Shown: positions 6,464 to 23,373 of the stretch, piece after piece
Layout: every line of letters starts with the position of its first letter
Position numbering within the stretch: the first letter of the stretch is position 1
Assembly (NCBI RefSeq): GCF_026248685.1
Contig: NZ_CP111042.1
Location: forward strand, 124,001 to 188,000
Direction of reading: 5' to 3'
DNA: 64,000 nt
DNA from: Haladaptatus caseinilyticus
Lineage (GTDB): Archaea > Halobacteriota > Halobacteria > Halobacteriales > Haladaptataceae
Notes under the pieces: model-generated
The model's database searches: none
Seen by the model: only the letters and a program-made list of their open reading frames with translations
Told to the model about the DNA's origin: nothing
Made by a program: the position numbers and the translations under genes

Positions 6464-6682
6464 ATGTCTCGACGCACGGCTGTAACCGATGCCGCAATCA
6501 ACGCTCCTGTTGGCTTAGTCCTCCTTTCGATTGGTAGTATCGTTGCATCGGCACTTGGGACCATATTTGATCCGGTGATCGCTGCGATTCCAGCACTGAT
6601 CGTCTAGATTGTTTGTGCGTTCTATGGGCTCAAACAGTTTGCCTATGGATTGTATACGCTCATCGAAGATGCAACGAGCTAA
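6464..6682 (+). pseudogene. Small two-helix membrane protein interrupted by an in-frame TAG
   Basis: From the ATG at 6464 the frame reads MSRRTAVTDAAINAPVGLVL and a first hydrophobic helix, meets TAG at 6605-6607 (codon 48), then continues without interruption IVCAFYGLKQFAYGLYTLIE to a TAA at 6680-6682. The residues after TAG are hydrophobic and protein-like, and the frame is kept. This is best read as a recent nonsense mutation of a 72-residue membrane protein. A 47-residue product with one helix could still be made. Pyrrolysine read-through is unlikely because haloarchaea are not known to use it. Confidence 0.6.
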
Positions 6683-21176: not shown

Positions 21177-21250
21177 AGCCTTAGGAGAGATTTGAACTCT
21201 CGGCCGACTCCTTACAAAGGAGTTGCTCTGCCAGCCTGAGCTACCAAGGC
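21177..21250 (-). tRNA. tRNA-Thr (anticodon TGT)
   Basis: On the minus strand a full cloverleaf folds: acceptor GCCTTGG/CTAAGGC, D-stem GCTC/GAGC, anticodon stem ACTCC/GGAGT around TTTGTAA (anticodon TGT), variable CGGCC, and T-stem GAGAG/CTCTC with loop TTCAAAT. The discriminator base is T, and CCA is not encoded. It has 74 bases and no intron. Confidence 0.95.
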
Positions 21251-21330: not shown

Positions 21331-22407
21331 TTACTTTATCGGAAACCGCAGTAGTGCTCCAACACCACTGAAGGCAGTCACGAACTGGGATCCACGTTCG
21401 GTATCACTGTTTATCACATATCCGTTGCCACCCTGCTGTTCGACAGCTGTTTCCAACTCTTCTCGTTGGTCTCGCGGTACTGTCGATGCAATAAGTATCG
21501 ACTCAACCGCTCCGAAGTCGGTCGCTCGCTCTACCTCTTCGGCACCATATGCAACCAGATCGCCATTTCGAAGCCGCGAATAGAACTCATCAAGGTGCTT
21601 GCGTCCTTCTCGCTGTTCGGCGTCGAGCAGTTGCTCATCCGCTTTCTCGACAAGCTGGTCCAACCCTTGCACAGTTGCATACTCAACCGAGTACGTTCCG
21701 AGCAGCCGATTGCGCAACCGATGGTCAAGGTAGCTGTCCGAGACGAACTGCTTTGCCGTCGCGAGCGTTCCCCCAACGACAAGGCCGGTAACCGTGCCCT
21801 CGTTACCGGTAAACGCATCGGTGGCGATATCTCCGACTTGCTGGAAGAACTCGTGGACTTGCCGTTCGCGGTCGCGCTCGAACCGCTGTGCAGACTGACC
21901 ACCCGCCCGCGACTTCCCCATTACTTGGCTTTCGAACGTCTGTATCGGGATGATCCGTTCTCCAACAAGTCGTCCGATGGCAGCGCCACCACGTTCGATG
22001 ACGATGAGTCCAAAGGTCTCATTCGGCGTCACTGCTTCAATCAGCGGTGTGAGATCAAAGTGATCGTCACATCGGTACGTCGACTCGGCCACTGGAGTCA
22101 GCAAGTCATCGAAGGCAGTCGAGATTAACTCACCCTCAACGACACCTGCATAGACCACGAGTCCATTCTCTGGTGTCCTTTCGTATCGACGGAGGATCCG
22201 CTGGACACGCTTGAGTGCTTGCTGAACGTGGTCTTGTGTCTGGTCGGATTTGATATTCTCAGCACTCGCGTATTCCTGGGCGATTCGTTCTCGAATTGAA
22301 CCCAACGATTTGCCGTTGGGAACGGTAACGGTGACGAGCTCAGTACCGTCGCCGGTGAGTGACTCAAGTTGGTCGATCTGGTCGCGAAGATCGTATGGTT
22401 GTGACAT
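21331..22407 (-). CDS. Divergent aRF1-like peptide chain release factor paralogue
   Basis: A 358-residue protein with all three eRF1/aRF1 signatures: NIKS (residues 51-54), YxCxxxF as YRCDDHF (111-117) and GGQ in GKSRAGGQSAQRFERDR (169-171). Its C-terminus ends GVGALLRFPIK, like normal aRF1 (GGIGAILRYP). It is about 55 residues shorter than standard haloarchaeal aRF1, with the loss in domain 3 (the minidomain). NIKS and YxCxxxF read stop codons and GGQ triggers hydrolysis, so it could terminate translation or rescue stalled ribosomes. Vms1-like proteins are related but lack NIKS. It is monocistronic, next to tRNA-Thr. Confidence 0.82.
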   Translation of the reverse strand: MSQPYDLRDQIDQLESLTGDGTELVTVTVPNGKSLGSIRERIAQEYASAENIKSDQTQDHVQQALKRVQRILRRYERTPENGLVVYAGVVEGELISTAFDDLLTPVAESTYRCDDHFDLTPLIEAVTPNETFGLIVIERGGAAIGRLVGERIIPIQTFESQVMGKSRAGGQSAQRFERDRERQVHEFFQQVGDIATDAFTGNEGTVTGLVVGGTLATAKQFVSDSYLDHRLRNRLLGTYSVEYATVQGLDQLVEKADEQLLDAEQREGRKHLDEFYSRLRNGDLVAYGAEEVERATDFGAVESILIASTVPRDQREELETAVEQQGGNGYVINSDTERGSQFVTAFSGVGALLRFPIK

Positions 22408-22588: not shown

Positions 22589-23023
22589 TTACGCCTCTGT
22601 ATCGACTGGCACCCGCTCGAATCCCATTGTCGAAAAATCACTGTCGAAGGCGAATAGATGCTCTATCTCGTGCTCTCGAGCAAGCACCGCACTCGTCTGA
22701 TCGATAAACGAAATTTGCTGGTCGTCGAAACGCTCGAACTCTTCACAAGCTGAATCAAACGTCTGTTTACCTACTGGGAGGATATTGAACGTCTTCGACT
22801 GCCGAACCGTCGAAAGCGCTTCAACAGCTGCTGTGTGTCCAATCTGGTACAGCATGAGTGTCGCAAACTCTGAAAGCACATACCGACTGGTGAACACCGG
22901 TCCATATTCACCCGATTCCATCCCATCGAAGACTGCATTCGCTGCGTCGTGATTCACATCATCCTTATCAAAGGCAGCGTACAATCCACCAGTATCCACG
23001 AACAGCGGCAGTGGACGACTCAT
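22589..23023 (-). CDS. PIN-domain (VapC-like) RNase toxin
   Basis: A 144-residue PIN domain with acidic residues in the expected places: Asp10 in LFVDTGGLYAAF, Glu52 in VLSEFATLML, Asp108 in SFIDQTSAVLA, and Asp127/Asp129 in FAFDSDFSTMGF. PIN proteins cleave RNA with Mg2+. Its ATG overlaps the stop of the upstream winged-helix gene by four bases (ATGA at 23020-23023), a strong sign of a toxin-antitoxin pair or of a co-regulated ribonuclease. Confidence 0.87.
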   Translation of the reverse strand: MSRPLPLFVDTGGLYAAFDKDDVNHDAANAVFDGMESGEYGPVFTSRYVLSEFATLMLYQIGHTAAVEALSTVRQSKTFNILPVGKQTFDSACEEFERFDDQQISFIDQTSAVLAREHEIEHLFAFDSDFSTMGFERVPVDTEA

Positions 23024-23373
23024 TCTGAACCCTTCCCATAGAGGATATCATCCACGTGCTCAGACGCATCAGTGGGCTCTCCAGAGCTGTAGGTCGTCCG
23101 TGAAAAGACTGGGTCACTCGGATCAACCTCATTCACCGAATCCTCATCGACTAGCCACCACACGACTCTTCCAGCAGTCTGGCGACTCTTCACTCGACCC
23201 TGATCCTCGAGTTGCCCAAGCTTCCGCCGGGCTGTCTCTCGTGAACACTCAAGGGCATCGGCAACATCACCGGAGGTCACCACTGGTCCCTCCACTTCCT
23301 CGAAGATAGCGAGTACGTCGGCGAGCGTCACCGTCTCGACGTACCGCCCAGAATCATTGCGATCTTTGGACAT
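23020..23373 (-). CDS. Winged-helix DNA-binding protein, likely antitoxin/repressor of the PIN gene
   Basis: A 117-residue protein starting MSKDRNDSGRYVETVTLADV. The winged helix covers residues 15-75 (VVTSGDVADALECSRETARR as the helix-turn-helix, then GRVVWWLV as the wing). The C-terminal 40 residues (TTYSSGEPTDASEHVDDILY) are acidic and could bind the PIN partner. The gene overlaps the PIN gene by four bases. Its promoter region and first ten codons are duplicated at 62222-62251, where the rest of the gene is missing. Confidence 0.85.
   Translation of the reverse strand: MSKDRNDSGRYVETVTLADVLAIFEEVEGPVVTSGDVADALECSRETARRKLGQLEDQGRVKSRQTAGRVVWWLVDEDSVNEVDPSDPVFSRTTYSSGEPTDASEHVDDILYGKGSE

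Follow-up and report, generated by a model that had tools for sequence, protein, structure and literature searches.

An insert-less aRF1-family protein on a secondary replicon of Haladaptatus caseinilyticus and its plasmid-borne relatives in Halobacteria

Most archaea are expected to have one class-1 release factor, encoded on the chromosome. The canonical haloarchaeal aRF1s of the set compared here are 408–419 aa long and have a domain-3 insert, in which CxxC pairs are mostly present; in Aeropyrum pernix, the ordinary release factor of the organism is an aRF1 without this insert. Extra release factors have been described from both archaea and bacteria. Methanosarcina barkeri encodes two aRF1s, apparently only one of which is active in termination (PMC2943090), and PrfH is a sporadic, mobile extra bacterial release factor that has been proposed to deal with RNase damage, with RtcB (PMC6514570). 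Other proteins of the aeRF1 superfamily depart from the canonical architecture. The archaeal VLRF1 has a coiled coil before its N domain and lacks the Pelota C domain (PMC6514570), and Balon is described as lacking both NIKS and GGQ (PMC10901736). Archaeal Balon-like proteins are listed in a 2026 survey for Methanosarcinia, Syntropharchaeia and Thermoplasmatota, and in that survey they are known only from lineages other than Halobacteria (PMC13324472). Neither "haloarchaea" nor "halobacteri" occurs in the main text of the article that covers the superfamily (PMC6514570), and a search of titles and abstracts, with partial coverage of the literature, returned no plasmid-borne or paralogous haloarchaeal aRF1.

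The window analyzed here, a stretch of 64,000 nucleotides of the haloarchaeon Haladaptatus caseinilyticus, encodes a second aRF1 that has no domain-3 zinc-ribbon insert. It lies on a 389-kb contig (C7) of a 4.82-Mb genome assembled in seven contigs.

A second aRF1 without the domain-3 insert

The gene (21331..22407, minus strand) starts with ATG and encodes 358 residues. Its product contains the N, M and C domains in that order, each above the Pfam cut-off (eRF1_1, 28.7 bits; eRF1_2, 100.3 bits; eRF1_3, 62.5 bits), and the NCBIfam aRF1 model TIGR03676 scores 305.2 bits against a cut-off of 234.7, in an alignment that is limited to positions 3–313 of the 403 in the model and leaves the insert columns unmatched. 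A first-pass annotation had recognized the three functional motifs and the loss of about 55 residues from domain 3, and both observations are borne out. NIKS is found at residues 51–54 (22246..22257, minus strand), YRCDDHF, which corresponds to the YxCxxxF motif, at residues 111–117 (22057..22077, minus strand), and the catalytic GGQ at residues 169–171 (21895..21903, minus strand). Comparison with an eRF1 alignment reveals that the N domain has also kept its GT and E positions, which are stop-reading residues in human eRF1. With every checked stop-reading residue retained, the protein sequence points to stop-codon-dependent release, and no tested feature would mark the protein as a rescue factor. 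A structure prediction, which was based on four near-identical sequences and reached a mean pLDDT of 37, was left unused.

The canonical aRF1 of the same organism (C1:1106153) has an open frame of 416 aa, or 413 aa from its Met, so that the window protein is 55 residues shorter, a difference that equals the domain-3 insert. The approximate site from which the insert is absent, near residue 312, lies at 21466..21477 on the minus strand, the exact column being alignment-dependent. The two proteins are 37% identical over residues 4–313 and 33% identical over their full length. Canonical archaeal aRF1 (TIGR03676, as in PDB 4af1), the best PDB match, has the same three domains, NIKS, YxCxxxF and GGQ, whereas the window protein is about 55 residues short in domain 3, plasmid-borne and accessory. 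The short domain 3 had also been read as the mark of an unusual protein, which it is not, given that other archaea lack the insert too. Outside Halobacteria, several families of the phylum (e.g., G465, G519, G485) have an aRF1 frame that is about 365–400 aa long and matches the query to the C terminus. The aRF1 of Aeropyrum (373 aa in PDB 3agk; also 3vmf), whose structure has been solved, is likewise complete and of similar length without having the insert; it is distant in sequence from the window protein. The window gene and its family allow the question of whether termination needs the domain-3 insert to be tested in accessible halophiles.

Three matches to eRF1 domain 2 exceed the cut-off in the H. 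caseinilyticus genome, namely the canonical aRF1 on the 2.65-Mb contig C1, Pelota, and the window gene on C7. A VLRF1-like frame, starting with a coiled coil, is also present on C1. The standard prf1 is thus encoded separately, in agreement with the earlier suggestion of a second aRF1-type protein, and the idea that the window gene provides the only release factor of the organism is rejected, with the canonical aRF1, Pelota and the VLRF1-like protein all located elsewhere. Taken together, the window gene is a real, conserved, accessory class-1 release factor with a predicted function.

Plasmid occurrence and motif loss among the relatives

Orthologues with 84–94% identity are found in six of nine Haladaptatus genomes (G000, G002, G005, G006, G007, G008), located on plasmids, on a second chromosome and, in H. 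pallidirubidus, on the main chromosome too. The other three genomes have no orthologue, and the gene is therefore not essential. In PLSDB, 12 records contain the protein, two of them from Haladaptatus and ten being plasmids of other haloarchaea with 55–57% identity: Haloferax (two), Halobellus, Halostella, Salinibaculum, Haloprofundus, Natrinema, Halomicrobium, Natronobeatus and another natrialbacean. The gene is named prf1 in 10 of the 12 records, and the other two are unannotated. Among 391 genomes of Halobacteria, at least 60 (G171 and G038 included) have a match that reaches the C terminus with E ≤ 1e-63, the count being a lower bound because weaker paralogues fall under the E limit. A complete class-1 release factor is here a mobile accessory gene. 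A virus-borne factor was also considered and rejected; two scans of viral contigs yielded no relative, and the single match in a phage collection extended over only 23% of the query. Scans with PHROGs and PADLOC returned nothing useful.

The motifs were counted in 70 distinct insert-less haloarchaeal sequences, four short or split ORFs having been left out beforehand. Class A, with the stop-reading motifs and GGQ, comprises 23 sequences including the window gene; class B, in which NIKS is lost and GGQ kept, comprises 40, and class C, in which both are lost, seven. YxCxxxF is present in all 23 sequences of class A and in none of the 47 of classes B and C, which means that two motifs about 60 residues apart were lost together. 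One class A sequence reads HIRS at the NIKS position.

Near-copies were left out of the trees, so that of 102 distinct proteins 87 were kept in an 88-row tree and 62 in a 63-row tree, each with Aeropyrum added. In the 63-row tree, classes B and C form a single clade (100/99), the class A genes of plasmids and of Haladaptatus come together (97/79), and all three sets are joined (100/100). GGQ was lost in three places within class B. This topology indicates a single loss of stop reading, followed by repeated loss of catalysis (GGQ at least three times), and the family shows that the two activities can be shed separately. The window protein groups outside the chromosomal aRF1 clade of haloarchaea (AU p 0.015 against one haloarchaeal clade), and an origin as a recent duplicate of haloarchaeal aRF1 is disfavored (AU p 0.0146), the group having been named after the tree was seen and long branches being involved.

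In the gene neighborhoods of class B, no telling partner was found. Several genomes of family f8 (G387, G202, G158, G288, G327, G226, G231 and G215) have the class B gene and the canonical prf1 about 30–40 kb apart. The seven class C relatives without NIKS, YxCxxxF and GGQ (L108, L020, L111, L025, L120, L031, L116) resemble the hibernation factors Balon and Rv2629 in combining an aeRF1 fold with the absence of NIKS and GGQ (PMC10901736). Judged by these motifs, they are candidate A-site factors of the Balon type in Halobacteria.

A canonical aRF1 match of at least 430 bits is present in 73 of the 75 genomes with insert-less proteins, the exceptions being G171 and G038. In G171, the canonical locus beside argS (L153:6231-7148, minus strand) is an open frame of 306 aa that contains the N and C domains of canonical aRF1 and the insert but no M domain, with DIES instead of NIKS and YRRDTTF, without the Cys, instead of YxCxxxF. 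The argS-adjacent place is occupied by a normal aRF1 in G262, which belongs to the same genus. Between these two canonical genes, dN/dS is about 0.37 in the N domain and about 0.69 in the C domain, compared with about 0.16 and 0.26 in an intact control pair. As seen in one assembly that is 96% complete, G171 has no intact aRF1 other than the insert-less one. This protein branches as sister to all the paralogues together, with support of 100/97 in the 63-row tree and of 95 (SH-aLRT alone) in the 88-row tree, on a long branch of 0.5 changes per site, and a small tree with Pelota and VLRF1 gave it no supported place. Its position suggests that a working general release factor gave rise to the clade, and G171 looks like a natural replacement experiment. 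In G038 (L026/L125), the only aRF1 found is an insert-less protein of 349 aa, whose long branch joins the base of the clade with weak support (92/61).

As a tentative interpretation, which we consider possible rather than probable, the clade could be a preserved series, leading from a stop-reading factor (class A) through a codon-blind peptidyl-tRNA hydrolase (class B) to a Balon-like, non-catalytic A-site blocker (class C). Plasmids would be one vehicle of this series, and in at least one lineage, G171, such a protein would have assumed termination once the canonical factor was without its catalytic domain. As the family sheds the two activities separately, the path from release factor to rescue or hibernation factor becomes testable in accessible halophiles.

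A probable backup release factor and the alternatives

The window protein, here named aRF1B, is probably a horizontally spread accessory member of the aRF1 family that is delivered by aEF1A, releases peptides in a stop-codon-dependent manner and serves as a backup to the chromosomal aRF1. This reading draws on the complete motifs, the three domains above cut-off and the score of the aRF1 model, on the retention of YxCxxxF in 23 of 23 sequences although the plasmid relatives are only 55–57% identical, and on purifying selection combined with a wide, patchy occurrence on plasmids. It is also supported by the sister protein, beside which G171 has no other intact aRF1, and by the solved structure of the insert-less Aeropyrum aRF1. 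Counted against it are the 47 of 70 clade members without stop reading, which show that the niche tolerates other functions, as well as the long G171 branch, the frameshifted copies in Haladaptatus and the three of nine genomes of this genus without an orthologue. Mechanistically, aEF1A-GTP would deliver aRF1B through its Pelota-like C domain, and NIKS, YxCxxxF and the GT/E residues would enable the N domain to read UAA, UAG or UGA. The M domain would then swing GGQ into the peptidyl-transferase center, where peptidyl-tRNA would be hydrolyzed, and ABCE1 would recycle the complex after release. Supplied by a plasmid or megaplasmid, such a backup would probably help a host that is short of termination capacity or whose own factor is impaired. 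Release activity, stop-codon range, delivery by aEF1A and condition of use are all predictions. The second aRF1 of M. barkeri is likewise an extra aRF1 beside a working one; it differs in that, of the M. barkeri pair, a single member appears to act in termination, and it is set beside the window protein by description only (PMC2943090).

The gene neighborhood bears on a different role, which had been proposed in the first-pass annotation as specialized rescue or stress response. Directly upstream lies a VapC-type PIN-domain protein (22589..23023, minus strand; PF01850, 52 bits), a possible partner, whose start is overlapped by the gene of a winged-HTH protein (23020..23373, minus strand). The best HTH matches of the latter are borderline, reaching or narrowly missing the cut-offs (HTH_11, 25.9 bits with a cut-off of 25), and it may be an antitoxin or regulator. 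VapC is located upstream in four of eight Haladaptatus places, those of the window, H. halobius, the H. pallidirubidus plasmid and G005. On six of eight annotated plasmids of other genera, an annotated toxin-type gene lies at most 3.1 kb away, belonging to three unrelated kinds (MazF on two, Doc on three and nucleotidyltransferase/DUF86 on one). Hypothetical ORFs take this place in the remaining two and in one unannotated record; a 170-aa ORF in L054 is PIN-like by eye, with no Pfam match.

These neighbors could point to a rescue factor, one that frees stalled peptidyl-tRNA after PIN, MazF, Doc or HEPN toxins encoded on the same plasmids have damaged tRNA, mRNA or the translation apparatus. 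The HTH–VapC pair in half of the Haladaptatus places, a relic of the gene beside a VapC-like gene on C5, the proximity of toxin-type genes on the six plasmids and the presence of only three genes named toxins in the roughly 123 of 132 kb examined in pHME132 all fit this explanation, as does the parallel with bacterial PrfH beside RtcB (PMC6514570). Nevertheless, toxin-type genes are common on haloarchaeal plasmids, related plasmids are not independent, and VapC is missing from the other four Haladaptatus places. PrfH shares the sporadic, mobile nature of the window gene but belongs to an unrelated fold family, and no RtcB neighbor occurs among the annotated genes here. Rescue at non-stop ends does not need full stop-reading motifs, and their retention points to stop-codon-dependent release. 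A rescue role is therefore conceivable but rather unlikely, and the link to RNase toxins is suggestive only.

Two further observations concern the surroundings of the gene. Upstream of prf1, about 850 bp without listed genes are conserved between plasmids (L044, L046, L050–L052, L054, L055), situated between the gene of an OB-fold-like DNA-binding protein and prf1; alignment of this stretch between plasmids revealed no function. Downstream, a tRNA-Thr (UGU) gene (21177..21250, minus strand) is present in three of eight Haladaptatus places. It occurs on C5, C6 and C7 of the H. caseinilyticus genome, and no copy was matched on the 2.65-Mb C1, where the only match was tRNA-Lys; the tRNA for ACA codons may thus be encoded on secondary replicons only.

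A changed stop-codon preference of the protein, for recoding or for a subset of genes, is improbable. The N domain is divergent, at 37% identity to the canonical aRF1 of the same organism over residues 4–313, and M. barkeri provides a precedent for two aRF1s (PMC2943090), but the GT, E, NIKS and YxCxxxF positions are all standard. Recoding had been brought up earlier, together with a remark on a small membrane-type ORF with an internal TAG (6464-6679, plus strand). The TAG is real in the sequence, but its connection to recoding is not upheld, since a congener has an uninterrupted copy that is 87% identical and no PylS (pyrrolysyl-tRNA synthetase) above the family cut-off was found in the H. 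caseinilyticus genome, so that the TAG is taken as an ordinary nonsense mutation in a gene that is simply broken.

Even less probable is that the gene is a redundant copy that is being lost and has no function of its own. Its presence is patchy. In H. pallidirubidus, one-base deletions disrupt every one of the three copies; two different sites are affected, and the chromosomal pair is alike. H. litoreus has a one-base deletion near the 3' end, and other species have intact copies. A gene fragment with 82% identity over 38 residues remains on contig C5 of H. caseinilyticus, beside the VapC-like gene. The gene is thus dispensable in H. pallidirubidus and H. litoreus, unless the deletions are sequencing errors; a programmed frameshift was rejected, as the deletion sites differ. 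However, among the four intact Haladaptatus genes (six pairs), dN/dS is 0.07–0.11 for the whole gene and 0.07–0.10, 0.03–0.08 and 0.10–0.19 for the N, M and C domains, respectively, and the paired motifs are kept in 23 of 23 sequences. In Haladaptatus, the gene is under strong purifying selection, the stop-reading domain included. The two chromosomal places in H. pallidirubidus (L042/L043) are 552 kb apart and have identical proteins over about 17 kb, which suggests a large recent duplication or an assembly effect.

Membership in another branch of the superfamily was assessed by model scores and architecture. The acVLRF1 model gives 73 bits (cut-off 125) and the pelota model 55.7 bits (cut-off 177.65); Pelota/Dom34 has an Sm-like N domain and no GGQ, whereas the window protein has an eRF1_1 N domain and GGQ. 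In a whole-protein tree with Pelota and VLRF1, both lie on branches of about 4 (VLRF1, a single row, 3.9) and VLRF1 falls among the class B and C rows, a placement taken as long-branch attraction and not informative. That the protein is a Vms1-like peptidyl-tRNA hydrolase or a Balon-like hibernation factor can practically be dismissed, as its weak cross-matches to the acVLRF1, baeRF family 10 and Rv2629 models are far exceeded by the aRF1 score, and as it possesses the Pelota-like C domain that archaeal VLRF1 lacks and the NIKS and GGQ that Balon lacks.
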